Of a stretch of DNA of 64,000 nucleotides, positions 21,084 to 58,549 are shown piece after piece; positions within the stretch are counted from its first letter, which is position 1; every line of letters starts with the position of its first letter. The notes below the pieces were generated by a model. That model was given only the letters and a program-made list of their open reading frames with translations. It had not been told where the DNA came from and did not search any database. The stretch comes from Gordonia sputi NBRC 100414 (GTDB lineage Bacteria; Actinomycetota; Actinomycetes; Mycobacteriales; Mycobacteriaceae), in the NCBI RefSeq assembly GCF_000248055.1, contig NZ_BAFC01000093.1, forward strand, positions 1-64,000. Reading direction: 5' to 3'. The translations under genes were made by a program, and so were the position numbers.

Positions 21084-21463
21084 ATACTCCGCGCGCCGCA
21101 CTTGTCGCTGGTCGAGCTTGTCGAGACCACCCGCTGGCCGAACGCACCCGTCGCTGGTCGAGCGCACTTGTCGCTGGTCGAGCTGAACCCGCTGGTCGAG
21201 CCGAACCCGCTGGCCGAGCGCACCATCGCTGGTCGAGCTTGTCGAGACCACCCGCCGATCGAGCGCACCCATCGCTGGTCGAGCTTGTCGAGACCACCCG
21301 CTGGTCGAGCTTGTCGAGACCACCCGCTGGTCGAGCTGGACGCGTCGCCGGTCGAGCGCACCCGTCGCTGGTCGAGCTTGTCGAGACCACCCGCTGGTCG
21401 AGCTTGTCGAGACCACCCGCTGGTCGAGCTTGTCGAGACCACCCCGCTGGCCGAGCTGCCCAG
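21084..21463. repeat. Field of CTGGTCGAGC-type repeats
   Basis: Gene-free DNA made almost wholly of units ending CGCTGGTCGAGC. At least seven carry the full palindromic core GTCGAGCTTGTCGAGACC; others are truncated and followed by variable 8-12 base linkers (for example GCACCCGTCGCTGG). The same element occurs inside or at the end of genes near 42.4, 45.3, 52.3 and 58.5 kb. No transposase is near. Confidence 0.9.
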
Positions 21464-21748
21464 CCAAAGTGGTTTCGACTCGGGTGCTCGCTGCGCTCGC
21501 GCCCGCTCAACCAGCGGAAGACGGGCCCGGCCCGCTGCTCGAGCTGAATCCGCCAAAGTGGTTTCGACTCGGGTGCTCGCTGCGCTCGCGCCCGCTCAAC
21601 CAGCGGAAGACGAGCCCAGCCACCCCGCTAGTCGAACTGACCCGGATCCTCGCTACGCTCACGCCCGCTCAACCAGCGGAACACGGCCCCAGCCCGCTGG
21701 TCGAACTGACCCGGATCCTCGCTACGCTCGCGCCGGCTCAACCAGCGG
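21464..21748. repeat. Two families of ~50-60 bp direct repeats at the tauD 3' end
   Basis: A 60-bp unit is perfectly repeated at 21464-21523 and 21553-21612. A related unit (GTCGAACTGACCCGGATCCT...) occurs at 21631-21680 and about 21700-21748. All end in GCTCAACCAGCGG, a variant of the neighbouring repeat. The last copy contains the tauD stop codon. Confidence 0.85.
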
Positions 21749-40806: not shown

Positions 40807-42552
40807 TCACATCCGGAAGACGCCGTAGCGCTGATCGGCCAGCGGTGCGTAACGGGCGGTTTCGAGCGCGAGCCCGAGCAACGTGCGGGTGTGTGCCGGA
40901 TCGACGATGCCGTCGTCCCACAGGCGCGCCGTCGAGTAGTACGCGTCGGACTGTTCGTCGAACTGCTCGCGGATCGGCGTCTTGAACGCCTCCTCGTCGT
41001 CGGCCGACCACTCCTTCCCGGATCGTTCGATCTGGTTGCGGCGCACCGTCGCAAGGGTGTCAGCGGCCTGTGGTCCGCCCATCACGGAGATGCGCGCGTT
41101 GGGCCACGACCACAGGAACCGCGGCGAGTAGGCGCGGCCACACATCGAGTAGTTGCCCGCCCCGAACGAGCCACCGATCATCACGGTGAACTTCGGAACG
41201 CGTGCGCACGCAACGGCATTGACCATCTTGGCGCCGTTTTTGGCGATACCGCCTTCCTCATAGGCACGCCCGACCATGAATCCGGTGATGTTCTGTAGGA
41301 ACACCAACGGAATTCGACGCTGGTCGCACAGTTCGATGAAGTGCGCTCCCTTGAGCGCCGATTCGCTGAACAGCACACCATTGTTGGCGACGAAGCCGAC
41401 GGGATGACCGTGCACGTGCGCGAACGCCGTGACCAGCGTCGTGCCGTAGTTCGCCTTGAACTCGGTGAATTCGCCTGCATCGCTGATGATCTCGATGACC
41501 TGTCGAACGTCGTACGGGGTACGCGCGTCGGTGGGCACGACGTCGTAGATGTCGGTCTGGCTGCGCGCGGGTTCACGCGGGGCGATCGTGTCCCACTGCG
41601 GTTGCTCGCGCGGCCCGAGGGTCGCGATGATCTCGCGGACCTTGGCCAGCGCCTGCTGGTCGTTGTCGACGAGGTGGTCGGTGACCCCGGAGACCGACGA
41701 GTGCATGGCACCGCCGCCGAGGTCCTCCGCGCTGACGTCCTCGCCGGTCGCGGCCTTCACCAACGGGGGTCCCGCGAGAAAGATGGTGCCCTGATTGCGG
41801 ACGATGACGGTCTCGTCGCTCATCGCGGGCACGTAGGCGCCGCCTGCCGTCGATGATCCCAGCACCGCCGCGATCTGCGGGATGCCCGCCGCACTCATCG
41901 TCGCCTGGTTGTAGAAGATCCGTCCGAAGTGTTCCCGGTCGGGAAACACCTCGTCCTGCGCCAGGAGCATCGCGCCACCGGAATCGACGAGGTAGATGCA
42001 GGGCAGCCGGTTGGCGGCGGCGATCTCCTGCGCACGCAGGTGCTTCTTGACCGTCATCGGGTAGTAGGTGCCGCCCGACACCGTGGCGTCGTTGGCGACG
42101 ATCATGCACTCACGCCCGGCGACACGCCCGACACCGGCGATCACACCGGCCGACGGCGCCTTGTCGTCGTACATGCCGAACGCCGCGAGCGGCCCGACCT
42201 CGAGGAACGGCGACCCGACGTCGAGCAGGCCGTCGACGCGATCGCGCGGGAGCAGTTTGCCGCGGGAGATGTGCCGCTCACGGGCGCGCTCGCCGCCGCC
42301 GACCGCGACGCGCGCAAGACGCTCGCGCAGCGTCGCGACGTTGGCCTCGTGCACCGCCCGACCGCTGGCCGAGCCATTGCCGCCGCCCGAGCCCTCACCG
42401 CTGGTCGAGCCCTTCTCGCTGGTCGAGCTTGTCGAGACCACGCTGGCCGAGCCCTTCTCGCTGGTCGAGCTTGTCGAGACCACGCTGCCCGAGCCGCTAC
42501 CGCTGGCCGAGCCCTCACCGCTGGTCGAGCTTGTCGAGACCACCCTCGTCAC
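40807..42552 (-). CDS. accD1: Acyl-CoA carboxyltransferase (AccD1-like) with repeat-encoded N-terminus
   Basis: Beta subunit, 581 residues, likely of methylcrotonyl-CoA carboxylase. The conserved enzyme begins about residue 65 ([17 protein letters not shown]) and shows [34 protein letters not shown] and [17 protein letters not shown]. Residues 3-64 are Ser/Thr/Gly-only low complexity ([14 protein letters not shown]) encoded by the dispersed CTGGTCGAGC repeat read in reverse. The GTG start has AAAGG 8 bases upstream, before the repeats, so the extension is probably translated unless an internal start is used. Confidence 0.9.
42361..42543. repeat. Dispersed repeat inside the accD1 5' end
   Basis: At least three copies of the GTCGAGCTTGTCGAGACCA core and several truncated GCTGGTCGAGC or GCTGGCCGAGC units lie directly after the accD1 start codon. 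Total length keeps the reading frame. Confidence 0.9.
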
Positions 42553-42592
42553 AGGCAGACCTTTCGCTTCGCAGGGATGCGTGCAGCCATCC

Positions 42593-42622
42593 GCTTTCAG
42601 TTAGCTGCAATTAACTGAAAGC
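42593..42622. promoter_or_regulatory. Large palindromic operator between accD1 and the oxidoreductase gene
   Basis: Arms GCTTTCAGTTA and TAACTGAAAGC match perfectly over 11 bases around an 8-base spacer (GCTGCAAT). It lies 40 bases from the accD1 start and about 175 from the divergent gene. Size and symmetry fit a TetR-type site; the TetR gene at 47 kb is a candidate binder. Confidence 0.7.
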
Positions 42623-42797
42623 GACTCTAGCGGATCGCGGCGCGGCTGTCATCTACTTGTCATTGTCGTCCCAGACGTGACGGGCATCACGCAATTTCGT
42701 ACTGTGGGTGATGAGGTCCACCACCCCCGGACCCAGCCCACACGTCGTCGGCCACACCCGCGCCGACGCCGACACACCACGAAGGCCAGGTGAACCC

Positions 42798-45700
42798 GTG
42801 ACCCTCGCAGATGATCGAGCCGACCGATTCCGGCGCGACGCAACCGCGAAGAATTCAGCATCGACGCAGGCAGGAGTGCGTGCGACGACACGCCCCACCG
42901 ATTTCACACTCGACGACCGCTACACCCGCGAAGAAGGTCCGATCTTCCTCGGCGGGATCACGGCGCTCGTCCGGATGATCGCCGACCGCGCCCGCGTCGA
43001 CCGGAGACAGAATCTGCGCACGGCGTCGTTCATCTCCGGCTACGAAGGCTCGCCGCTCGCGGGCTTCGACCTCGAACTCATGCGCCGCCAGTCGCTCCTT
43101 GCACCCTTCGACGTGGCGCACCGCCCGGGTCTCAACGAAGAACTCGCCGCGACGTCGGTGATGGGATCGCAACTCGCCCCGACACTCGGCCCGCTCGCGG
43201 CCGACGACGACGGCCAGCAGCGCAACGGCGTCGTCGGCTACTGGTACGGCAAGGCACCCGGCCTCGACCGCGCGTCAGACGCCATACGCCACGCCAACCT
43301 CATCGGTACGCATCCCGACGGCGGTGCCGTCGCTCTCGTCGGCGACGATCCAGCCGCCAAGAGCTCGACGGTCCCGTGCACATCGGAGATGGCGCTCGCC
43401 GACCTCTACATCCCGACGCTCTACCCGGCCGATTCTCAAGACATCCTCGACCTCGGCGTACACGCCGCGGTCATGAGCCGGGTCAGCGGTCTGTGGACCT
43501 CGCTCAAGATCTCTGCACACGTGGCGGATGGGTCGTCGACCGCGGTGGTGCATCCCGATCGAGTGGTTCCCGTCTACGGCGATCTGGGGCGCAGCCCGCA
43601 CGTACCCAGCTGCAAGCTGCTCGGCGCCAATCTCATGGAGCTCGAACAGAATCAGTTGACGACGCGCATCCCGCGCGCGCTGGCATATGCACGACACAAC
43701 GGCATCAACCGCATCGCGGTACGCAGTGGTGACGACAGGATCGGACTGGTCGCCGCGGGAAAGACGTACCTCGATCTTCGGAATGCGTTGCGACTCATGG
43801 GACTCGACGACGCCGATCTACAACGGGCCGGTATCCGCATCCTCAAACTCGGCATGGTCTACCCGCTCGACCGCGAGATCCTCGAGCGCTTCATCACCGA
43901 TACCGCCGCCGGTCGACTCGACGAGGTGATCGTCGTCGAGGAGAAGCGCGACTTCATCGAAACCATGATGCGCGACATGCTGTATCGCCATCCGCGGGCC
44001 CCGCGCATCGTCGGAAAGGTTCATGAGGACGGTTCGACGTTGTTCTCGCGTTTCGGCGAACTCGACGTCGACGCAGTCACTCTCGGCCTCGCGACACGCC
44101 TGGCAAGACACCATCACGTCGACGCCGCGCAGGCGTGGCTCGACGAGCACAACGCGCGTCGGTCGAGTACCCGGATCGACCTTCCGCTCGCTGTCCGCAC
44201 GCCGTATTTCTGTTCGGGATGTCCGCACAACAGCTCGACCAAGGTCAGTCCCGGCACGCTCGTCGGCGGCGGAATCGGCTGTCACGCAATGGTGTTGCTG
44301 ATGGATCCGGAACAGGTCGGCGATATCGCCGGCGTCACCCAGATGGGCGGCGAGGGCGCCCAGTGGCTCGGCATGGCACCGTTCGTACCCGCCGACCATT
44401 TCGTGCAGAACATCGGCGACGGCACGTTCACGCATTCGGGATCACTCGCCCTGCGCGCTGCTGTCGCCTCGGGTGAGAACATCACCTACAAGCTGCTCTA
44501 CAACGGCACCGTCGCGATGACCGGCGGACAGGACCCCGTCGGCGAGTTCAGCCTCGCCCAGTTGACGCGACTGCTTGCCGCAGAAGGGGTGTCGCGCATC
44601 GTCGTCACCTCCGACGACCCGTCGCGCACACGGTCTGCCGACCTCGCCGACGGCGTCGTGGTGCGTGATCGCGGCGACCTCGCCGACGTGCAGACCGAAC
44701 TGGCGGCGGTCCCCGGGGTCACGGTGTTGATCCACGATCAGCACTGCGCGGCGGAGAAACGTCGGAAACGCAAGCGCGGCACCATGTCCACCCCGACGCA
44801 GCGGGTCGTCATCAACGAGCGTATCTGCGAGGGATGCGGCGACTGCGGTGAGAAGTCGAATTGCCTCTCGGTGCATCCGGTACAGACCGAGTTCGGACGC
44901 AAGACCCGCATCGACCAGAGCTCATGCAACCTCGACTTCTCGTGCCTGAAGGGCGATTGCCCGTCGTTCGTCACCGTCACACCCGGCCACACCCCGGCAT
45001 CGCGGCGTGCGACCGAGATCGACGCCGCTGCCGTCCCCACTCCCCGTATTGCCCGACCCGTCACGTCCGACACCGACTTCACGATGCGCATCACGGGCAT
45101 CGGCGGGACCGGCGTCGTCACCGTCTCCCAGATCCTCGCCACCGCAGCATTTCTCGACGGCCACGCAGCCCGCACGGTCGACATGACCGGCCTCGCCCAA
45201 AAGGGCGGCGCCGTCGTCAGCGACATCAAGGTCTCGGCGCTGCACTCCGTCGACACCGATTCCGCTGATGCCGCTGGTCAAGCCGACCCCGCTGGTGAAG
45301 CGTCGTCTTCCGCTGGTCAAGCCGATCCCACCGCTGGTCGAGCTGATTCCACCGCGGGTCAAGCCGATCCCGCTGGTCGAGCTTCCACCGCTGGTCGAGC
45401 TTGTCGAGACCACCTCCCCAGCCCCGTCGAGCAGGCAGCCAAGGCCGCGGCCGACACGTGCGATCTGTACCTCGCGTGCGACTCCCTCGTCGGCACCGAC
45501 CCGGTGAACCTCAAGGTCACCGCGCCGGATCGGACCGTCGCGGTGGTGTCGACGACCCGAATTCCCACCGGCGCCATGGTCATCGACACCTCGGTCGGCT
45601 TCCCCGCCGACACCGCTGTCCATGACTCGATCGACGCCCGTGTCGCACGAGCCGCATACCTCGACGCGGGCGCGCTCGCGACGGAGTTGTTCGATGACGA

Positions 45701-46589
45701 GCAGTTCGCCAACATGCTGATGGTCGGCGCGGCGTATCAGACCGGGGCACTACCGATCTCGGCCGAGTCGATCGAGCGCGCCGTCGAACTCAACGGCGTT
45801 GCAGTGTCGGCAAACCTGCAGGCGTTCCGGCGTGGTCGTCAGGTGATCGCGGATCCGGATGCCGTGTCGCGAGAGGTCACCGGCGTCGAATCAACTGCAG
45901 TCGAGCCGAGTTCGTATGCGCGCGAGCAGGTTGCGCGACTACACCTCGACGACGACCTCGCCCACAGCGTCGGCATTCGCGTCGACGAATTGGTCGCTTA
46001 CGCCGACGAGCGTTATGCCGCTGAGTATCTCGGCGTCGTCGACCGCGTGTCGCGCGAGTCGGACAGCCCCGAACTCGTCGACGCGGTGGCACGGAACCTG
46101 TACAAACTGATGGCGTACAAGGACGAGTACGAGGTGGCGCGCCTCACCGCCGATCCGACCTTCGCCGCCCAAATCAGCGGCGATTACGGCGACGACGCGA
46201 AAGTCGCTGTGCGACTGCATCCCCCGCTGCTGCGGGCACTTGGCCGCAAGGAGAAGATGTCGTTCGGTGCGCGGACGGCCCCGATGCTCGCCGGTCTCGC
46301 GAAGATGAAGAAGTTGCGCGGTACGCGCCTCGATCCGTTCGGCTACACCGAGATTCGACGCACCGAGCGCGAGCTCATCGTCGAATATCGGGAACTCGTC
46401 GACGCGATCCTCGGCGCCGTCGGCTCGGGGTCTGTCGATCCTGGCACTCCTGATCCGCGTCGGCTGTCGGCGCTGGCCGAGTTGGCGGCGCTGCCCGACA
46501 TGGTCCGCGGCTACGAGCAGATCAAGATGGACAACGTCGCGCGGTATCGCGCCGAGGTCGCACGCCGCCGGGCCGAGCTCGGGATCTGA
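42798..46589 (+). CDS. Fused indolepyruvate/2-oxoacid:ferredoxin oxidoreductase
   Basis: A 1263-residue single-chain enzyme oxidising aryl- or branched 2-oxoacids to acyl-CoA. Order: IorA-like pyrimidine/TPP region (FISGYEGSPLAGFDLE; PYFCSGCPHNSS; GGGIGCHAM; NIGDGTFTHSG), iron-sulfur segment ICEGCGDCGEKSNC, IorB-like gamma domain (GIGGTGVVTVSQIL; MTGLAQKGG), and a C-terminal DUF6537 region. Residues about 823-873 are an Ala/Gly/Asp/Pro insert encoded by the dispersed repeat. GTG chosen because AGGTG precedes it; longer in-frame ATG starts exist. It is divergent from accD1. Confidence 0.9.
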   Translation: MTLADDRADRFRRDATAKNSASTQAGVRATTRPTDFTLDDRYTREEGPIFLGGITALVRMIADRARVDRRQNLRTASFISGYEGSPLAGFDLELMRRQSLLAPFDVAHRPGLNEELAATSVMGSQLAPTLGPLAADDDGQQRNGVVGYWYGKAPGLDRASDAIRHANLIGTHPDGGAVALVGDDPAAKSSTVPCTSEMALADLYIPTLYPADSQDILDLGVHAAVMSRVSGLWTSLKISAHVADGSSTAVVHPDRVVPVYGDLGRSPHVPSCKLLGANLMELEQNQLTTRIPRALAYARHNGINRIAVRSGDDRIGLVAAGKTYLDLRNALRLMGLDDADLQRAGIRILKLGMVYPLDREILERFITDTAAGRLDEVIVVEEKRDFIETMMRDMLYRHPRAPRIVGKVHEDGSTLFSRFGELDVDAVTLGLATRLARHHHVDAAQAWLDEHNARRSSTRIDLPLAVRTPYFCSGCPHNSSTKVSPGTLVGGGIGCHAMVLLMDPEQVGDIAGVTQMGGEGAQWLGMAPFVPADHFVQNIGDGTFTHSGSLALRAAVASGENITYKLLYNGTVAMTGGQDPVGEFSLAQLTRLLAAEGVSRIVVTSDDPSRTRSADLADGVVVRDRGDLADVQTELAAVPGVTVLIHDQHCAAEKRRKRKRGTMSTPTQRVVINERICEGCGDCGEKSNCLSVHPVQTEFGRKTRIDQSSCNLDFSCLKGDCPSFVTVTPGHTPASRRATEIDAAAVPTPRIARPVTSDTDFTMRITGIGGTGVVTVSQILATAAFLDGHAARTVDMTGLAQKGGAVVSDIKVSALHSVDTDSADAAGQADPAGEASSSAGQADPTAGRADSTAGQADPAGRASTAGRACRDHLPSPVEQAAKAAADTCDLYLACDSLVGTDPVNLKVTAPDRTVAVVSTTRIPTGAMVIDTSVGFPADTAVHDSIDARVARAAYLDAGALATELFDDEQFANMLMVGAAYQTGALPISAESIERAVELNGVAVSANLQAFRRGRQVIADPDAVSREVTGVESTAVEPSSYAREQVARLHLDDDLAHSVGIRVDELVAYADERYAAEYLGVVDRVSRESDSPELVDAVARNLYKLMAYKDEYEVARLTADPTFAAQISGDYGDDAKVAVRLHPPLLRALGRKEKMSFGARTAPMLAGLAKMKKLRGTRLDPFGYTEIRRTERELIVEYRELVDAILGAVGSGSVDPGTPDPRRLSALAELAALPDMVRGYEQIKMDNVARYRAEVARRRAELGI
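45264..45417. repeat. Dispersed repeat inside the oxidoreductase gene
   Basis: About eight units of CCGCTGGTCAAGCCGA or CCGCTGGTCGAGCT, with one full GTCGAGCTTGTCGAGACC core at the end. In frame it encodes AGQADPAGEASSSAGQADPT-like peptide within the gamma domain, just after the conserved SDIKVSAL strand. Confidence 0.9.
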
Positions 46590-46611
46590 CGGCTGTCCCC
46601 GACTGAGTGCG

Positions 46612-46910
46612 CGGGAAGTGGGGGAAGGGTTCTTCCCCCACTTTCTGCGTGGCGCTCGGGCCGTCCCGCAGCAGGCTGGCCGAACTCTTCCCCGTGGGTC
46701 TGACCGTTCCCCGCGAAGCAACCCGCGGAAACGCCGAAACCCCGCGGAAAGAACCCTTCCCCTACTTTCTGCACCGCCCGACAACCGCCGAACAGACCAC
46801 CCCCACACCCTTCCCCGCAGTCCTGACCTTTCCCCGCGAAACAACCAACGGAAACGCCCAAACCCCGCGGAAAGAACCCTTCCCCTACTTTCTGCACGGC
46901 CCGACGGCCC
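46612..46910. repeat. Gene-free repeat array between oxidoreductase and TetR genes
   Basis: Two long copies of about 75-80 bases (46698-46773 and 46821-46897) share GAAACGCC(G/C)AAACCCC and GAACCCTTCCCCTACTTTCT. A third partial copy is the hairpin at the left end (GGTTCTTCCCCCACTTTCTG). The family differs from the CTGGTCGAGC repeat. No open frame with good features is seen in these 364 bases. Confidence 0.8.
46616..46643 (+). terminator. Hairpin after the oxidoreductase gene
   Basis: Arms AAGTGGGGGAAG and CTTCCCCCACTT pair perfectly over 12 bases with a 4-base loop, 27 bases after the stop codon. The sequence also belongs to the neighbouring repeat family, so it may be a repeat acting as terminator. 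Confidence 0.65.
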
Positions 46911-46953
46911 GGCTGCCCGAGAGCTGCTCCCCGCCGACGCCGCGCGCCCCCGC

Positions 46954-47601
46954 TCACCCAGCCGCGCACTCCAGCGCGGCGGTGGCCATGGCGGTCAGGA
47001 CGGTGCGGAGGCGGGCGCTGTCGAGTGCGGGCAGTCGCGGCGAGGAGTTGAGCAGGCCGAACATCGCGTGCACCCGGACGCGGGCTTCCGGCCGCGCGAG
47101 TGTCGCGCCGCGTTCGGTCATCAGCGCCAGCAGCACGTCAACCCACTGCTCGACGTAGCGGCGCTGCAGCGAGCGAACCTCGTGGTTGGCCTCCGGTGTC
47201 AGGTTGTGCAGGTCGCGATCCTGCACGACGATCAGGTCCGGCTTGGTGACCAGCACATCGATGTGGAAGTGGATCAACGCCTCGAGGGTCTCGGCAGGTG
47301 GGAGGCCGCGGTCGACGACCTCTGCCCCGCCGTCGCGGAGTCGGCGGCTGATGTCGAGCAGCATCTGATCGAGCAGGTCGGTCTTCGACGCGAAGTGCCG
47401 ATACATCGCGGGACCACTCACGCCGACGGCGCCGCCGATGTCCTCGAGACGTACTCCGGCGAATCCCCGTGCGGCCATTTGTCGGGCAGCGGCGTCGAGC
47501 ATTTCTCGACGCCGAGCGGCTTTCGCCTCGCCACGCTTGGTGAGCGGCGGCGTGACAGACGCGGCGAGCGTCGCGGTCTCAACGGGGTCTGCTGGCGTCA
47601 T
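46954..47601 (-). CDS. TetR-family regulator (Rv2506-like)
   Basis: A 215-residue repressor. HTH at about 51-70 (RLEDIGGAVGVSGPAMYRHF), then FASKTDLLDQML. The C-terminal region with LHNLTPEANHEVRSLQRRYVEQW and MFGLLNSSP resembles the TetR beside the M. tuberculosis leucine cluster (Rv2506), so I propose it controls the acc/fad cluster. It lies downstream of the nitroreductase on the same strand, 47 bases apart. Confidence 0.84.
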   Translation of the reverse strand: MTPADPVETATLAASVTPPLTKRGEAKAARRREMLDAAARQMAARGFAGVRLEDIGGAVGVSGPAMYRHFASKTDLLDQMLLDISRRLRDGGAEVVDRGLPPAETLEALIHFHIDVLVTKPDLIVVQDRDLHNLTPEANHEVRSLQRRYVEQWVDVLLALMTERGATLARPEARVRVHAMFGLLNSSPRLPALDSARLRTVLTAMATAALECAAG

Positions 47602-47618
47602 GGTGTCATCGAATCTAC

Positions 47619-47640
47619 CGCCGGTACGGCGATACCGGCG
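47619..47640 (-). promoter_or_regulatory. Inverted repeat upstream of tetR
   Basis: Arms CGCCGGTA and TACCGGCG, 6-base spacer, lie 18 bases before the tetR start and 8 bases after the nitroreductase stop. It could be an autoregulatory operator or a terminator for the upstream gene; the sequence does not decide. Confidence 0.45.
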
Positions 47641-47648
47641 ACGCTAAT

Positions 47649-48269
47649 TCACCAACCGTTGATGTGCAGTACATCGTCGAGCGGCTTGCGTTGTGCCGGC
47701 GCGAAGTCGGTGCCCTGCGTGTAGGCGACCGGTAGCAGCACGCCCTGGTGCACGCCGTCGGGAATGCCGAGCAGGTCGGCCACTTCTTGTTCGTACACGA
47801 GGTGCAGGGTGGTCCACGCAGAACCCAATCCGCGTGCACGCAGTGCGAGCATGAGGTTCCAGGCCCCCGGAAGCAACGATCCCCACACCCCTGCCTGGTT
47901 GCCTGTCGGCAGGTCAGCGCCCGTCTTGATCGCTCCCACTATCAACACCGGCACCTCGCCCATCACGTCGGCGAGGTACTGGGCGCTGGCGGCGACACGG
48001 CGGGCGGTGTCGGTCGACACTGTGCGCTGTGCCGAGTAGTCGGCGAACGAGCGGGCGTAATAGTCGGCGACCTGGCGCTTGAGGTCGGCGTCGGTGATGA
48101 CGATCCAATGCCACCCCTGCGCGTTCGACCCCGTCGGGGCCTGAATCGCGACCTCGAGTGCTTCACGGACGACCTCGATCGGAACAGGTCGCTCCAGGTC
48201 GAGGCGCTTGCGAACCGAACGGGTAGTCGTCAGCAGCTCATCGGGGTTCAGCGGCAGAAGGTCGGTCAT
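47649..48269 (-). CDS. Nitroreductase-family flavoprotein
   Basis: FMN-dependent oxidoreductase of 206 residues. Conserved parts are the N-terminal TTRSVRKRLDLERPV with the FMN-binding Arg, APTGSNAQGWHWIVITD, and SLLPGAWNLMLALRARGLGSAW. It is close in type to nitroreductases acting on nitroaromatics or enones; the physiological substrate is unknown. It begins 13 bases after the metI stop on the same strand, so it may be the last gene of the met operon transcript. Confidence 0.86.
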   Translation of the reverse strand: MTDLLPLNPDELLTTTRSVRKRLDLERPVPIEVVREALEVAIQAPTGSNAQGWHWIVITDADLKRQVADYYARSFADYSAQRTVSTDTARRVAASAQYLADVMGEVPVLIVGAIKTGADLPTGNQAGVWGSLLPGAWNLMLALRARGLGSAWTTLHLVYEQEVADLLGIPDGVHQGVLLPVAYTQGTDFAPAQRKPLDDVLHINGW

Positions 48270-48282
48270 CGTGCTCCTCGGG

Positions 48283-48969
48283 TCATCTGTGCCGTGCGCG
48301 GCGTGCCAGCCAGTTCCCAAAGTACTGGCCCACTTGCACCAGGATCACCAGGAGGGCGATCACCACGACGGTCAGTTTCCAGTCGAACTGCTGATAGCCG
48401 TACTGGAATGCGAAGTCGCCAAGACCCCCACCGCCGACGTACCCGGCCATTGCCGACATGTCGACGATGGCGACAAAGATGAAGGTGTAGCCGAGAACCA
48501 GCGGCGCAAACCCTTCGGGAACCACGACGGTCAGCAACGTACGCAACCGACTGGCACCAGACGCTCGCGCCGCTTCGACCACGCCCGGATCAACAGACAC
48601 AAGACTCTGTTCGACGACGCGCCCGATGACCACCATCGCCATCAGCGTCATCGGGAAGATCGCCGCCTCGGTACCGATGCGCGTGCCCATCACAGCTTTG
48701 GTGAGTGGGGCGATCGCGGTGATGAAAATGATGAACGGGATCGGACGGACGATATTCACAACGACGTTGAACCCGTTGAAGATCCACGCGTTGGACCAGA
48801 GATTTCCGGGGCTCGTCGCGTACAGGATCACTCCGATGACCAGCCCGAGCAGACCTCCGATCAGCAGCGTCACGCCGACGAGTTCGAATGTCTCCCAGAT
48901 GGATTGGATCAACAACGGCCGCAGCTCCGGCCCGAAGACCCGCGTGAAGCTCTCACCGTCGGCGAGCAC
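48283..48969 (-). CDS. metI: Methionine ABC transporter permease
   Basis: A 228-residue permease with five to six helices and the EAA loop VVEAARASGASRLRTLLTVVVPE. The NIVRPIPFIIFITAIAPLT and DMSAMAGYVGGGGLGDFA segments are characteristic of MetI. The GTG start lies 17 bases after the metN stop. Part of the metQ-metN-metI set for uptake of D/L-methionine. Confidence 0.9.
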   Translation of the reverse strand: MLADGESFTRVFGPELRPLLIQSIWETFELVGVTLLIGGLLGLVIGVILYATSPGNLWSNAWIFNGFNVVVNIVRPIPFIIFITAIAPLTKAVMGTRIGTEAAIFPMTLMAMVVIGRVVEQSLVSVDPGVVEAARASGASRLRTLLTVVVPEGFAPLVLGYTFIFVAIVDMSAMAGYVGGGGLGDFAFQYGYQQFDWKLTVVVIALLVILVQVGQYFGNWLARRARHR

Positions 48970-48986
48970 GAACGTCTAGGCGGCGG

Positions 48987-50081
48987 TCACTGCTGTGTCC
49001 CCTCGTGTACGACGACGCCGTCGATGCGCACCAGTTGCGCACGCGCGGCGTCGACCGACGTTGCGTCGCCGGTGATCTCGTAGGTCAATGCTCCGAACGG
49101 TCGGCCCGCGATGTCGCTGATGCCGCCCGCGATCACCGTCGACCGAGCGCCGTGTTCCGCGACGGCCGCGGGTAGGTCGAATGTGGCGTCCTGATGACCG
49201 CTAGCGGCAGCGTCGTCGCGCACCGACACGGTTGCGAGCAGTCCGGGGTGCCGGGCGCGCAGCGTCGCCAACGCATCGGCGTCCGGGACTCCCGCGACGG
49301 CGTGTCGCAACAGTCCTCGTGTGACGTCCGACGTGGGATGCTCGAAGACGGAGTACACATCTCCGTTGTCGACGAGCCGACCCCGATCGAGGACCGCGAC
49401 CGACTCGCACACGTCACGCACGACATCCATCTCGTGGGTGATCACGACGATCGTCGTACCGAGATCGGAGTTGATGCGCCGCAACAACTTCAGGGTGTCC
49501 GACGTCGTCTGCGGATCGAGCGCGCTCGTCGCCTCGTCGGCGATGAGAATCGACGGCGAGGTGGCGAGTGCTCGCGCGATTCCGACGCGCTGCTTCTGTC
49601 CGCCCGAGAGCGCTGCGGGCCATTGATCGGCCTTGTCGGCAATGCCAACGAAGTCGAGTAGCTCCTCGATTCGACTGCGCCGCTTGTCCTTCTGAAAGTG
49701 AGCGACCTTCAAAGCGAAGTCGACGTTGCCCGCCACGGTCCGCGAGTTGAACAGATTGAACTGCTGGAAGATCATGCCGATATCGGTACGCAGCCGGTTG
49801 AGCTCCCGCTCCGACGCCCGGCTGTGTTCTGCACCGTGCACGAATACCTGCCCGCCGGTTGGTCGTTCGAGACCGTTGATGAGCCTGGCGAGCGTCGACT
49901 TTCCCGCACCGGACGGACCGATGATCCCGACGATCTCCCCCGAGCGGACACTCAGATCGATCCCGTCGAGGACTTTCGGCCCCGACTTGTCGAAACGCTT
50001 TGAAACGCCGACGAAGTCGATCGCGGTGTCGGACCCCGCAGGTGAACCGAGGTCCGACGCCGCGTCGACGTCAGGAACCAT
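48987..50081 (-). CDS. metN: Methionine ABC transporter ATP-binding protein with NIL domain
   Basis: A 364-residue ATPase: Walker A GPSGAGKS (55-62), signature LSGGQKQR, Walker B LIADEATSALD, switch His in VITHEMDVV. The C-terminal NIL domain (about 285-360), which senses methionine and inhibits transport in this family, is present. The start overlaps the end of metQ by 11 bases. Confidence 0.92.
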   Translation of the reverse strand: MVPDVDAASDLGSPAGSDTAIDFVGVSKRFDKSGPKVLDGIDLSVRSGEIVGIIGPSGAGKSTLARLINGLERPTGGQVFVHGAEHSRASERELNRLRTDIGMIFQQFNLFNSRTVAGNVDFALKVAHFQKDKRRSRIEELLDFVGIADKADQWPAALSGGQKQRVGIARALATSPSILIADEATSALDPQTTSDTLKLLRRINSDLGTTIVVITHEMDVVRDVCESVAVLDRGRLVDNGDVYSVFEHPTSDVTRGLLRHAVAGVPDADALATLRARHPGLLATVSVRDDAAASGHQDATFDLPAAVAEHGARSTVIAGGISDIAGRPFGALTYEITGDATSVDAARAQLVRIDGVVVHEGTQQ

Positions 50082-50943
50082 TGGTGTTGACGGACGCTTG
50101 CAGGTCCTTCGTCGTCTGTTGGAGATCGGAAGCCGAATTGTCCTTGATCACACCGCTATCGCCGAGTGAACGCTTGACGGCGGCGATCACCTCGGGGTCG
50201 TGGTAGATCTTCACCAGCTTCGCGTAGGTGGGGTTGTCCTTGTCGTCGTTGCGGGCGACGAACGCGTTGATGTACGGCTTGGCCCCGGCCGAGTTTGGAT
50301 CGTCGGACGCGATGATCTGGTCCTTGGTCAGCTTCGCCGACGTCGCGTAGTTGTTGTTGACGATCGCGGCGTCGACCGAATCCAGATTTGCCGCTGTCTG
50401 ACCGGCGTCGACGGCGATGACCTTCACCTTCGACTTGCCCTGGTCGATGTCGGCGAGGGTCGAGAACGCATTGCCCGGCTTGGTGAGCGTGATCAAGCCC
50501 GCCTGCTCGAGAACCAGTAGTCCGCGCGCCTGGTTGGTCGGGTCATTGGGGATCGCGACCTGCCCACCCTGGGGGATCTCCGACACCGACTTGTGCTTGG
50601 TCGAGTACAGCGGCAACGGGTAGACGGCCGTCGCGCCGATCGGCACCAGGTTCTGCTTGTTCTTCGCGTTGTACGTGGCGAGGTAGAGCAGGTGCTGGAA
50701 CTCGTTGAGGTTGAGTTCACCCTCTGCGAGAGCAGGATTGGGCTGGTTGTAGTCGGTGAAGTTCACCAGCTCGACATCGATGCCCTGCGCAGAAGCCTTC
50801 TGCTTGAACACATTCCAGTATTCCTCGGACGCGTCGGCGACACCGATCTTGACCTTCGACGAGTCGTCGTCGCCACCACAGGCCGTCAGCACCGCCCCAC
50901 CGAACACGAGCAACAACAAGACGGCGAGAACTTTCGACCGCAC
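50071..50943 (-). CDS. metQ: Methionine-binding lipoprotein
   Basis: NlpA/MetQ-type substrate-binding lipoprotein, 290 residues. Signal with lipobox LTAC, lipidated Cys22. Family segments: KIGVADASEEYWNVFK, LNLNEFQHLLYL, QVAIPNDPTNQARGLLVLE, DAAIVNNNYA. First gene of the metQNI operon. I looked for a SAM riboswitch or S-box in the 160-base leader and did not see one. Confidence 0.92.
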   Translation of the reverse strand: MRSKVLAVLLLLVFGGAVLTACGGDDDSSKVKIGVADASEEYWNVFKQKASAQGIDVELVNFTDYNQPNPALAEGELNLNEFQHLLYLATYNAKNKQNLVPIGATAVYPLPLYSTKHKSVSEIPQGGQVAIPNDPTNQARGLLVLEQAGLITLTKPGNAFSTLADIDQGKSKVKVIAVDAGQTAANLDSVDAAIVNNNYATSAKLTKDQIIASDDPNSAGAKPYINAFVARNDDKDNPTYAKLVKIYHDPEVIAAVKRSLGDSGVIKDNSASDLQQTTKDLQASVNTNGS

Positions 50944-51106
50944 GACGACCTCCGCGAATCACAATCGACACTGATCTGACTCTGCAAAACGCTAATGCCC
51001 GCACACCAGGCTTCCGACCACACGCCGATGTCACGATCATCACCCACCGTGCGGACCTGCGGATTCGACGCGTCGTCGAATTGTGTTCACGATGAACCGA
51101 ATTGGC

Positions 51107-53158
51107 TCACTCGACGAACCCGCCCGCTGTCAGATGCTCGAGCAGGCCCTCGGTGAGTGGCAGCGCGCGCATCTCGTCGACCGTGAACCATCCGGCGTCA
51201 GCCGCATCGTCGGCGGCCCGCACCGTGCCACCGACCGCGACCGCGACGTAATCGTGGATTTCGAAGACCCCTCCCCTGCCGTCGGGGATGTCGACCACCC
51301 ATGCCTTGGCACCGACCTCGACGTCGAGTCCGGTCTCCTCCGCGATCTCGCGGATCACCGCCGCGACGAGCGTGTCCGCGTCGTCACGGGGTCCGTAGGG
51401 ACCGACGGCGTCGACCGGATCGACCTTGCCGCCGGGCACCGTCCACCGGCCGGCTTGAGGGTCGCGAAGTCGCTGCACGAGAAGAAATCGTCCGTCGTCG
51501 TCGCGAATGATCGCACCGACGGCGAGTATCCGACGCCCGCGCTTGTCTGCCGAATGACGCACGCGCCGTTGATGATCGGGCATGAGCCCCGCCAACACCC
51601 GGCCGATACTCGCGCGGAGGTCGCCAGCTGCGTCGGCTCCCCAGCGCACGATCTCGTCGATCTCACCGTGTGCGGCGAGGTCGGTGGCCGCAATACCCTG
51701 TGCCGCAGCGAGTTCTGGTGCGTGCTCCGTGTCACGATGCACGATGACACTCGCGCCCTCCGGCGGCAGAGGCGACAGCCACGCGTCGTGCGCGGCGAGT
51801 CGACGATCTGTCGGGAACAACGCGAGCGCCGCACCACCCGCCCCCTCCCCGAGCAGCACCGACACCGTTGGCCGTGGCACAGCGATGAGATCTGCCAGAC
51901 AGAGCGCGATCTCACGCGCGAGACCACCCTCTTCGGCGTCGACGGACAGGTCGGCGCCGGGTGTGTCGATCACCGTGACGACGGGCAGGCGCAGTTCGGT
52001 CGCCAACGCCAGACCTCGCCGGGCGACCCGCAGGTCAGCGGGGCCGATCAGCCGACCGTCGGCCTGCACTGCCCTGTCCTGCCCGATCACCACGGCCGTC
52101 GTTTGCCCGAATCGACTCAGCGCCAGCACAATTGGACCGGTGTCGTGGATCACGGCGGTGCCGGAATCGAGCAGCAGCGCGCGCAGCCCGCGACGACCTG
52201 CGGCGCGCGTCGCCAGCACGCTGGGCCAGGTCTCGACAAGCTCGACCAGCGGAGATGGGGCGTCGACCGGCGGGGATGGATCGTCGACCGGCGGGGATGG
52301 ATCGTCGACCGGCGGGGATGAGGCGTCGACCGGCGGGGATGAGGTCTCGACTGGCGGGGATGAGGTCTCGACCGGCGGGGATGAGGTCTCGACAAGCTCG
52401 ACCGACGAAGATGAGGCGTCGACCGGCAGGGATGGGGCGTCGACCAGCGGAGATGAGGCCTCGACCGGCAGATCAGCAGGCTCACCGAGCAATGCGACGA
52501 CCTCGGCTACGCGGCCGGGGAGTTCGCCCAGCGGCACGATGGCGTCGATGATGCCGTGGGCGGCCAGGTTCTCCGACACCTGCACGCCGTCGGGAAAGGG
52601 CTTGTGGTGCAGGCCTTCGTAGACTCGTGGTCCCAGGAACCCGATCAGCGCACCGGGTTCGGCCCAGGTGATGTGCCCCAGAGAACCCCACGAGGCGAAC
52701 ACCCCGCCGGTGGTCGGGTTGCGCAGATACACGAGGTACGGCAACCCCGCTCGTCGGTGACTGCCGACCACCTCGGCGATCGACGCCATCTGCAGGAAAG
52801 CGGCCGTGCCCTCCTGCATTCGAGTGCCACCGGAAGCGGGCAGTGCCAGCACCGGAAGTCGCTCACGTGTCGCGCGTCGAACAGCGTTGACCACACGCTC
52901 ACCGGCGGCGCGCCCGATCGATCCCCCCAGGAACCCGAATTCGCTGACAACCAACACAATCGGAGCGCCGGAGATCACTCCGACACCGGTGATCACCGAC
53001 TCGTCGGTACCGGTTCGCTTGCGTGCACGCCCCAACGCCGCGGCGTAGTCCCGGTCGAGCGCAACGTAGCTGGGCGCTTCGTCCCAGGACTGCCAGGTGC
53101 CGTCGTCGACGAGTGAAGTCACCAGTTCTACTACCGTCACTCCCACCGACTCAGCCAC
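51107..53158 (-). CDS. AccD3-like carboxyltransferase fused to a Nudix hydrolase
   Basis: A 683-residue fusion. Residues 1-225 are the N-terminal and about 315-525 the C-terminal half of an acetyl-CoA carboxyltransferase of the AccD3 kind (VSEFGFLGGSIGRAAGERV; ALPASGGTRMQEG; VTVIDTPGADLS; LLGEGAGGAALAL). Residues 231-310 are a Ser/Pro/Val/Asp linker in seven-residue periods encoded by the dispersed repeat. Residues 543-680 are a Nudix domain: GGKVDPVD...VIREIAEETG, with about ten extra residues inside the Nudix box. No biotin subunit is adjacent; activity of either part is untested. GTG start is likely but later GTGs are possible. Confidence 0.85.
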   Translation of the reverse strand: MAESVGVTVVELVTSLVDDGTWQSWDEAPSYVALDRDYAAALGRARKRTGTDESVITGVGVISGAPIVLVVSEFGFLGGSIGRAAGERVVNAVRRATRERLPVLALPASGGTRMQEGTAAFLQMASIAEVVGSHRRAGLPYLVYLRNPTTGGVFASWGSLGHITWAEPGALIGFLGPRVYEGLHHKPFPDGVQVSENLAAHGIIDAIVPLGELPGRVAEVVALLGEPADLPVEASSPLVDAPSLPVDASSSSVELVETSSPPVETSSPPVETSSPPVDASSPPVDDPSPPVDDPSPPVDAPSPLVELVETWPSVLATRAAGRRGLRALLLDSGTAVIHDTGPIVLALSRFGQTTAVVIGQDRAVQADGRLIGPADLRVARRGLALATELRLPVVTVIDTPGADLSVDAEEGGLAREIALCLADLIAVPRPTVSVLLGEGAGGAALALFPTDRRLAAHDAWLSPLPPEGASVIVHRDTEHAPELAAAQGIAATDLAAHGEIDEIVRWGADAAGDLRASIGRVLAGLMPDHQRRVRHSADKRGRRILAVGAIIRDDDGRFLLVQRLRDPQAGRWTVPGGKVDPVDAVGPYGPRDDADTLVAAVIREIAEETGLDVEVGAKAWVVDIPDGRGGVFEIHDYVAVAVGGTVRAADDAADAGWFTVDEMRALPLTEGLLEHLTAGGFVE
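52229..52468. repeat. 21-bp repeat array inside the AccD3-Nudix gene
   Basis: About ten 21-base units (GTCGACCGGCGGGGATGAG variants) are bounded or interrupted by two full GGTCTCGACAAGCTCGACC cores (52229-52247 and 52385-52403). Every unit is seven codons, so the frame is kept. Encodes repeats like SSPPVDA and SSPPVET. Confidence 0.9.
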
Positions 53159-53185
53159 CTCACCAACGCTAGTCTTCGACCAGGC

Positions 53186-53236
53186 CTCAGCGGGTGAAGA
53201 ACCTCGGCGGGTGAAGAACCTCAGCGGGTGAAGAAC
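53186..53236. repeat. 17-bp tandem repeat, three copies, at the RDD gene end
   Basis: Units at 53186-53202, 53203-53219 and 53220-53236 (one base change), followed by a fourth truncated copy that contains the stop codon of the RDD gene. The array lies in its 3' flank, upstream of the AccD3-Nudix start. Confidence 0.85.
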
Positions 53237-53237
53237 C

Positions 53238-53798
53238 TCAGCGCGAGTACACGACTCGCGTCCGCAGGATCAGGTCGGCAACCGAGCGTCGCTTGGTGTC
53301 GACGCCGGCCCACAGCAGTCCGATGGCGAAGAACACGCAGATCGCGGCCCGAATCACAGCCACCGATGGCCGCACACGGCCTCCCTTGCGATTCACCACC
53401 CGGATGCCCATCACGACGCTCCCCAGCGTGCGCCCGGACACCGCCCAACACGTCGCGAGGTAAATGATCGACACGACGACGAATGCACCGACCGTGAAGA
53501 ACCCGTTGGTGCTCGGCATCGAAAAGTCGTGGACGTTGTAGAGCAGTCGGGCCATCACGACGCCCAGGTAGATGGCACTCATGATGACCAGCACGACGAT
53601 CAGGTCGAGCACCGCACCCACTCCGCGACTCACGATGCCCGCCGACTTCGAGGTGTCGTGCACCGCGTGGGCCTTGGTCTTTCTGGCCTCTGAGCGAGCG
53701 GCGTGCTCGTCGGCGGCAGTGTCAGAGGGATCGCCGCCGTCGGGCTCATGGTGCGAATCGGATTCGGACGAATCCCGTTGGGGCTCAGTCACGCTCAC
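53238..53798 (-). CDS. RDD-family membrane protein
   Basis: A 186-residue protein. A charged 50-residue N-terminus precedes an RDD domain: SRGVGAVLDLIVV with the Arg/Asp signature, GRTLGSVVMGIRVVNRKGGR, and RRSVADLILRTRVV at the C-terminus. About three helices. Function of RDD proteins varies (ion exchange, osmolyte); none can be chosen here. GTG start overlaps the end of the upstream nonapeptide-repeat gene by 14 bases, implying co-expression. Confidence 0.83.
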   Translation of the reverse strand: MSVTEPQRDSSESDSHHEPDGGDPSDTAADEHAARSEARKTKAHAVHDTSKSAGIVSRGVGAVLDLIVVLVIMSAIYLGVVMARLLYNVHDFSMPSTNGFFTVGAFVVVSIIYLATCWAVSGRTLGSVVMGIRVVNRKGGRVRPSVAVIRAAICVFFAIGLLWAGVDTKRRSVADLILRTRVVYSR

Positions 53799-54567
53799 CG
53801 GATTCCACCTCCGCGGCCACGCGTCGGCGCAGCAGCCGGCCGACCATGACGGCGACGGCGTCGTCGGCGCGTTCGCTGGTGCTGCGTACGTCGGTCATCA
53901 CGTCGGCGGTGACCGACGTGCTCGCCTCGCGGATGATCCCGGGAAGGTCGACGCCGTCGATGATGACGTCGGCGAGTCCGATGAGGTCGACGCGGTTGAT
54001 CACGGCGTCGACGTCCACATGCGAGACGGCACGGTCGAGGTCGACGGTGTCGATGATCGCGTCCAGGTCGACGGTCGCGATCACCGCCTCGATGTCGACG
54101 CGCGCGATTGCAGCGTCGAGGTCCACCCGAGCGACCGCAGCGTCAAGATCGACCCGCGCGACCGCGGCGTCGAGATCCACTCGCGCGACGGCGGCGTCGA
54201 GATCGACACGCGCGACAATGGCGTCGAGGTCAAGAAGGTCGACGATCGCGTTCATGTCGACCGACGCGATGATCTTGTCGAGGTCGACGTTGTCGAGCAC
54301 CAGCGCGGTGAGGTCGATCTCGGACGTGAACACGTCGACGATCTCGCGGATCAGCGCACCCATGCCCGACTGCACACCGGCCGTTGCCAACACACCCGCA
54401 GAGTCGACGACGTTGTGCGCGGACCGTCGTACATCACGAACGACCGAACCTGCCACGGGGACATGCTCGGCGACGTCGAACATCGCCGACGCGGCGCGGA
54501 ACGGGAGCTTCAGCACGCCCAGGACAGGAGTCCGGTCCCCGCCAGCCGCCGTGGCATCGTTGGTCAC
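53785..54567 (-). CDS. Nonapeptide-repeat protein of unknown function
   Basis: A 260-residue protein, no signal peptide or clear membrane helix. From residue 94 to 201, Val/Leu-Asp pairs recur every nine residues without a gap (94, 103, 112 and so on to 193): twelve units of consensus ARVDLDAAV. The regular pattern fits a solenoid or amphipathic rod. The N-terminus has helices (LPFRAASAMFDVAEHVPVAG), the C-terminus is basic then acidic. GATAAT lies 6 bases before the GTG, fitting a leaderless start. It overlaps the RDD gene, so the product may act at the membrane with it. Confidence 0.75.
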   Translation of the reverse strand: MTNDATAAGGDRTPVLGVLKLPFRAASAMFDVAEHVPVAGSVVRDVRRSAHNVVDSAGVLATAGVQSGMGALIREIVDVFTSEIDLTALVLDNVDLDKIIASVDMNAIVDLLDLDAIVARVDLDAAVARVDLDAAVARVDLDAAVARVDLDAAIARVDIEAVIATVDLDAIIDTVDLDRAVSHVDVDAVINRVDLIGLADVIIDGVDLPGIIREASTSVTADVMTDVRSTSERADDAVAVMVGRLLRRRVAAEVESGERD

Positions 54568-54648
54568 CCGAGCATTATCCCACCCGGGCGACCGGAGCAC
54601 CCTGACAACAAGGACTCCTCCGAAACACGAAACCCGCACCAACAAGAA

Positions 54649-58464: not shown

Positions 58465-58549
58465 ACCCGCTGGTCGAGCGATACCCCGCTGGTCGAGCGA
58501 TATCCCGCTGGTCGAGACTGACCCGCTGGTCGAGCTTGTCGAGACCTCA
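58465..58549. repeat. Dispersed repeat at the pcrA stop codon
   Basis: Four CCGCTGGTCGAG units, the last with the full GTCGAGCTTGTCGAGACC core, begin directly after the pcrA stop (read from the minus strand). They fill the gap to the convergent M23 gene. Confidence 0.88.

Follow-up and report, generated by a model that had tools for sequence, protein, structure and literature searches.

The Rickettsia palindromic elements (RPEs) are AT-rich, and the Wolbachia palindromic elements form a similar system. PMC10969869 describes RPEs as short palindrome-bearing repeats of about 150 bp, present in many copies and located in frame in unrelated genes as well as elsewhere. Repetitive extragenic palindromes (REPs) tagged with GTAG or CGTC are, according to PMC3733652, palindromic sequences of 20-40 bp that lie mostly between genes, many near 3' ends, and in some cases in open reading frames (ORFs) at termini or flexible linkers; grouped intragenic REPs encode tens of residues, CGTC REPs apparently have no dedicated transposase, and neutral insertion of intragenic REPs into flexible linkers or loops was proposed earlier. 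The main text of that paper (PMC3733652) does not mention Actinobacteria, Gordonia, Nocardioides, Arthrobacter, Corynebact or Streptomyc. PARCEL elements (PMC2996958) are dyad-symmetric repeats arranged in tandem within ORFs and patchily spread, which encode a 25-residue amphipathic motif, many of them in membrane-targeted proteins. Here we describe a GC-rich, palindrome-ended repeat in a 64,000-nucleotide stretch of Gordonia sputi NBRC 100414 (contig NZ_BAFC01000093.1, positions 1 to 64,000 of the forward strand; the window, whose numbering is used unless stated), where it lies in frame in three conserved enzymes.

We found that the 19-nucleotide core of the repeat, GGTCTCGACAAGCTCGACC, occurs in 14 exact copies in the window, against a mean of 0.04 in 100 shuffles, and in 119 exact copies in the genome (4.95 Mb), whereas its reversed, uncomplemented control gave none. 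The half unit, CGCTGGTCGAGC, is present 40 times in the window with at most one mismatch, compared with 1.77 expected. The consensus around 100 copies of this genome extends the core to GT-core-AGCGG, a 26-bp unit, GTGGTCTCGACAAGCTCGACCAGCGG, with dyad ends TGGTC/GACCA, which up to rotation is the tandem unit at 21273-21337; the sequence flanking the core is not the same in Gordonia genome G036, nor in genomes of other families. The core is free of stop codons in all six frames.

The accD1-like acyl-CoA carboxylase carboxyltransferase gene (40807-42552, minus strand; 581 aa, GTG start, PF01039 at residues 94-566) contains at 42362-42541 (minus strand) an array with three exact cores at spacings of 42 and 60, read as VVSTSSTSG... 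over about residues 4-64. The 2-oxoacid oxidoreductase gene, of the indolepyruvate ferredoxin oxidoreductase family (42708-46589, plus strand; 1293 aa, NF009589), has in its gamma (POR) domain, at about 45264-45411 (plus strand), an array of half units and one exact core, the latter on the minus strand, read as AGQADP...GRACRDH. The AccD3-like protein (51107-53158, minus strand; 683 aa) joins, in a single ORF, an AccD half to an AccA half and a NUDIX domain, and its array (52229-52469, minus strand), composed of 21-bp units with two exact cores, is read as SSPPVD...VELVET between the two halves. A first-pass annotation, made from the letters of the window alone, had proposed in-frame copies with intact flanking domains in these enzymes; the arrays at 42362-42541, 45271-45411 and 52229-52467 agree with it, and the rest of all three ORFs matches Pfam families. 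It had placed the repeat at domain borders; in the oxidoreductase, however, the array is part of a loop of the gamma domain and does not separate two domains.

Comparison with orthologues showed that the long linkers are missing where the DNA repeat is missing, and the same linkers were not found in orthologues without it. In the alignment of the oxidoreductase (the window and 36 of 54 loci), the long linker is present only in the window and in G. jacobaea, the closest relative with 96% identity in the best segment, followed by G. aichiensis and G. otitidis with 88 and 87%. Three of the 36 orthologues, those of G. aichiensis, G. otitidis and G. jinhuaensis, contain a short insert, which in G. 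otitidis includes one half unit, and the remaining 32 have only a few residues at this site. An AlphaFold2 model of residues 771-1293, with a mean predicted local distance difference test score (pLDDT) of 79, has a sole segment below 50, residues 78-131 of the model, corresponding to 45249-45410 and thus nearly to the array; this linker is predicted to be disordered. Among solved structures, no sequence relative of the oxidoreductase was found. The disorder proposed for the linkers at first pass is thus backed by low pLDDT for the oxidoreductase, the sole linker with a usable model, but not by the AccD3 model, which we rejected as too poor (mean pLDDT 48 from 6 sequences; residues 227-321 low and coil, with many others low too).

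The VELVET core of the AccD3 linker is shared by two of 11 sequences, those of the window and G. jacobaea. The linkers of G. aichiensis and G. otitidis (loci L001 and L036) are shorter, rich in Ser/Pro/Glu or Ser/Thr, and without the core, and that of L031 reads SVETVETT, perhaps a worn copy of the repeat. In solved structures, the counterparts of the two AccD3 halves are separate chains, one of AccD and one of AccA. Fusion of AccD3 with NUDIX was also seen in L001, L002 and L036, and separate tblastn pieces were seen in L007, L010, L032 and L048.

For AccD1, 24 of the 30 loci with a match were read. The N-terminus contains the core in G. jacobaea and a one-base variant, with a shorter extension, in G. 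aichiensis and G. otitidis (L001 and L036), whereas the other 21 loci have N-termini without the core, many starting with MVTST. Since core or variant is present at the same site in four species with differing array lengths, the array probably entered once and then grew. The GTG start (42552-42550) is preceded by a Shine-Dalgarno-like AAAGG (42560-42564, minus strand), and both are conserved in G. jacobaea, G. aichiensis and G. otitidis, suggesting that translation probably includes the array; another in-frame GTG further on (VHEAN...) may be the start instead.

The repeat is not confined to these enzymes. The names of the other genes are taken in part from Pfam matches. In Gordonia, the core is in frame in genes for an acyltransferase 3 (L059), a MenE-like protein (L060), a Pks13-like protein (L063; L231 in G. 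otitidis), a phosphotransferase system (PTS) protein, between HPr and enzyme I (L111), and, in G036, in the linker of HtpG (L090) and the tail of HU (L091), as well as in the polyprenyl synthase of G067 (L228); further in-frame arrays form the tail of a DUF1365 protein (L068) and the N-terminus of a zincin (L069, L115). These nine further genes support the idea that the repeat supplies linkers generally in the genus, and the core or a close relative extends beyond the genus originally proposed. In other families it is in frame in genes for thymidylate kinase, protein mannosyltransferase, an FAD dehydrogenase, two aldehyde dehydrogenases (at the start), a GIY-YIG protein (tail), a molybdopterin enzyme and probably a thioesterase (L134), and an ABC transporter gene annotated in RefSeq for Arthrobacter sp. 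ERGS1:01 has a related array in its tail. The thymidylate kinase of G442 has GLDKLDQRG at a site where all 29 other aligned congeners are six residues shorter. The MenE array is present in this genome and G. jacobaea, two of 30 loci (from 41 matched genomes). Among 30 HtpG loci (40 matched genomes), the core is found in G036 and a variant, read as VSTGSTGE, in G004; neither was seen in the HtpG peptides of the other 28. The Pks13 linker contains the core in this genome, G. jacobaea and G. otitidis, and other repeat types elsewhere: one in G019 and G022, a second in G004, and a long form in G028 and G032. The G019 type is also found beside the core in this genome. As a separate observation, the tail of another G036 ORF (L226) has tandem PPSPVE units and ends in a variant of the repeat read as VEPVET.

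An initial sample of 37 Gordonia genomes included three with the exact core (119, 97 and 9 copies), and 24 other members of the order had none. With the two central bases left free, eight of 59 Gordonia genomes matched, five of them with the exact core (119, 97, 9, 2 and 1 copies); the 97 copies are those of G. jacobaea. Sampling across the class gave 10 carriers of the core among 394 genomes, counting this genome, and these belong to six genera. Of the 12 exact copies in the three low-copy genomes, 11 are in frame in genes (10 certain and one less so): 9/9 in G036, 1/1 in G067 and 1/2 in G070.

From stretches that, together with the window, hold 102 of this genome's 119 copies, along with 66 of the 97 of G. 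jacobaea and all nine of G036, we collected 77 arrays with 177 cores, the polarity of which is uniform within every array. Scripted labels placed 36 arrays without a supported gene, 30 at N-termini, 8 internally and 3 at C-termini. Fourteen were kept as coding (7 internal, 2 C-terminal and 5 N-terminal) and 63 were not: 25 N-terminal labels were dropped, 10 after reading the translation and 15 without, and the internally labelled L092 was excluded because the part after its array resembled an antisense frame. L124 (release factor) was not taken as coding either. The 63 include L096, labelled C-terminal on the wrong strand, which is the in-frame AccD3 array of G. jacobaea; having one core, it leaves the spacing counts unaltered. 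Distances between cores are multiples of three in 18 of 18 cases within arrays classed as coding, as opposed to 32 of 82 elsewhere. By scripted labels only, internal plus C-terminal arrays gave 13/14 against 37/86 (p 0.0004), and with N-terminal arrays included the counts became 36/50 and 14/50, although open frame and spacing are not independent. In the analyst's tally of main readings in 21 genes, STSSTS was used 11 times, VELVET 4, GRACRDH 3 and GLDKLDQ 3, and the other two not at all (p 0.0003); SSLSRP was seen once, as a secondary reading, in L275. In a position test on 17 genes, omitting DUF1365 (start uncertain), the polyprenyl synthase, the thioesterase (L134) and the Arthrobacter gene, the array was outside Pfam matches in 12, compared with 4.9 expected (p 6e-5).

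These data are very probably explained by a dispersed palindrome-ended repeat that was copied widely, grew by tandem duplication and was filtered for frame within genes. The repeat would have been copied, presumably by mobilisation, to many sites, mostly extragenic and often between converging genes; local growth, perhaps by slippage, would have followed through tandem duplication of the unit or its half. Within genes, selection would have kept mainly frame-preserving copies encoding a mild peptide (STSSTS, VELVET, GRACRDH or GLDKLDQ) at N-termini, C-tails, loops or inter-domain linkers, resulting in lineage-specific, presumably disordered linkers in core enzymes. That the copies are exact although they are read differently, lie on either strand and also occur extragenically points to copying of DNA; inside arrays, the single polarity and the multiples of the half unit suggest that tandem duplication came later. 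The mobility suggested at first pass is presumed, no RAYT transposase having been found.

Several observations weigh against this account. Arrays keep the frame in the three window enzymes, as had been claimed, but in the PTS gene elsewhere in this genome (L267, G000:C142 around 52448-53400) the HPr and enzyme I parts lie in different frames, unlike in G. jacobaea, whose PTS gene is not split by its array; the split may be real or an assembly error. If the assembly is right, growth also breaks frames, and the copies remaining in genes are those that were filtered. The spacing rule, which depends on a coding status set by the analyst and not blind, is broken by a coding array found later in the G. 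jacobaea acyltransferase (L275, spacing 71), giving 18/19 (p 6e-6), and falls to 18/20 with the frame-broken PTS array added (p 3e-5) or with L092 (spacing 59; p 4e-5), and to 18/21 with both (p 1e-4). The bias in readings is weak in Gordonia genes alone (n=12, p 0.075). Internal arrays alone are outside Pfam matches in five of 10 cases against 3.4 expected (p 0.20), so that the preference for domain borders rests on terminal arrays, and the polyprenyl synthase array, which was outside the position test, lies inside its Pfam match. The linkers of AccD3, Pks13 and HtpG, moreover, vary in relatives anyway, so that the repeat lengthens existing linkers no less often than it makes new ones. No target-site duplication was demonstrated in flank alignments. 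Folding of the 26-bp unit, with a 5-bp stem, is not above shuffles (z 0.18 and -0.27 for the two strands), nor is that of the long forms (z -0.29, 0.14 and -1.05), and a stable hairpin of the REP type was rejected on these grounds. A RAYT transposase (PF01797) was found in none of 59 Gordonia genomes and none of nine repeat carriers, in a search that covered this transposase class alone and in which five of 14 control genomes were positive, and mobilisation by RAYT was accordingly rejected. A phage or plasmid vehicle was rejected as well: the exact 26-mer was present in no viral contig, the phage record collection not being searched, and only one of 72,556 plasmid records, from Arthrobacter, contained a relative, with 90% identity over 94% of the query and inside a gene.

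An unlikely, if the best surviving, alternative is that the repeat is a functional DNA site (for protein binding, termination or mRNA stability), selected as such and tolerated in some genes. Both flanks could be typed for 46 non-coding arrays: the neighbouring genes converge at 24 of them, run in the same direction at 15 and diverge at 7, counts that omission of L096 does not change. One array, at 58467-58546 (minus strand) and consisting of half units and one core, ends at the base adjoining the stop codon of a uvrD-like helicase gene. However, 54 of the 59 Gordonia genomes have no exact copy, intragenic and N-terminal copies are ill-suited to a terminator, and the folding does not exceed that of shuffles.

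It is improbable that the linkers are local minisatellites only, each having slipped from a GC-rich seed in its own gene, with convergent likeness. Unit sizes do vary among arrays (18, 21, 26 and 42 bp), polarity is uniform inside them, the AccD3, Pks13 and HtpG linkers are variable in relatives without the core, and the number of tandem units differs between this genome and G. jacobaea, as in minisatellites with a variable number of tandem repeats. Such variation does not by itself explain dispersal, the same 19 bases being exact in several readings, on both strands and outside genes, and convergence of 119 copies is very unlikely; local growth is accepted here as the second step. Least credible of all is an artefact of annotation or assembly, in which AccD1 would start after its array and the other frames would come from errors in repeats: the assembly is a 157-contig draft with six contig ends within about 260 bases of a copy, AccD1 has an internal GTG, and translation of L124 probably begins after its repeat. 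Against this, the three genes also contain in-frame arrays in the assembly of G. jacobaea, where the array lengths differ, which makes error-made frames unlikely, internal arrays in several genes are flanked by matched domain on both sides, and the accD1 start region is conserved in four species.

The copied and frame-filtered repeat may belong to something larger. In 1.17 Mb of sequence surrounding the oxidoreductase in relatives, GGTYGAG-N2-45-TCGARACC was matched 28 times, at 16 of 54 loci, and its reversed control not once, suggesting that the core is one member of a wider family. We tentatively raise the possibility that a class-wide palindrome-ended family of Actinomycetes (GGTYGAG...TCGARACC), spreading without RAYT, repeatedly lengthens the same inter-domain linkers, with at least three types in the ketosynthase-acyltransferase (KS-AT) linker of Pks13, which we take to be the mycolate synthase, across Gordonia species and two in HtpG, and might thus act as a standing generator of linkers for core enzymes. 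Separately, six copies of GGTCGAGCGGAGTCGAGACC, the type found in the Pks13 linker of G004, were noted at the G. zhenghanii locus L021.

Elsewhere in the window, an array with seven exact cores (spacings 121, 46, 26, 67, 26 and 26), which includes the 26-bp unit, lies outside supported genes at about 21106-21457 (minus strand; no supported ORF), next to a long-form relative, GGTTTCGA...TCAACCAGCGG, at 21471-21517 (plus strand) and a second, identical one at 21560-21606 (plus strand); a lone half unit is located at 17537-17548 (plus strand). Between the oxidoreductase gene and a TetR-like ORF, at 46600-46930, a different intergenic repeat, CCGCGGAAAGAACCCTTCCCCTACTTTCTGCAC-like, is present in more than one copy by eye. 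The ORF at 53785-54645 (minus strand) contains 27-bp repeats giving a regular VDLDAAVAR-like protein, with no Pfam match at 1e-5.

If our explanation is correct, core enzymes of actinomycetes (AccD1, Pks13, HtpG, HU and thymidylate kinase) repeatedly gain new linker sequence from a small repeat. Nature would thus offer versions of each enzyme that differ in having the linker or not, in which tolerance and effect can be measured. It also raises the question of which enzyme copies a 26-bp repeat without RAYT, and cautions that such arrays can mislead draft assembly and the calling of gene starts in these genomes.

With regard to known systems, the first-pass annotation likened the copies between genes to REP or miniature inverted-repeat transposable element (MITE) sequences. 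Like the REPs of PMC3733652, the Gordonia repeat is short, present in many copies, mostly extragenic and often near 3' ends, with in-gene copies at termini or linkers and, as for the CGTC type, no dedicated transposase found; it differs in having neither the GTAG nor the CGTC tag at either end of the 26-bp consensus and no stable stem-loop, and the genes hit are mostly not DNA repair genes. With the PARCELs it shares tandem dyad-symmetric repeats in ORFs and a patchy spread, but its core encodes 6-7 residues in several readings and is also found outside genes. The resemblance to RPEs is that the same palindrome-bearing, multicopy DNA repeat is in frame in several unrelated genes and elsewhere, the insert being missing from the orthologues of relatives; in contrast, the Gordonia repeat is 26 bp long, GC-rich, grows locally in tandem and is found in Actinomycetes, the two being likened by their way of working. 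The literature searched contained no published exact copy of the core and no report of a Gordonia or actinobacterial case. A tolerated in-frame repeat is thus less unusual than was supposed at first pass, since RPEs, intragenic REPs (PMC3733652) and PARCELs are known; the kind is known and the Gordonia repeat itself appears to be new, a different sequence that, by analogy, works like RPEs and intragenic REPs.

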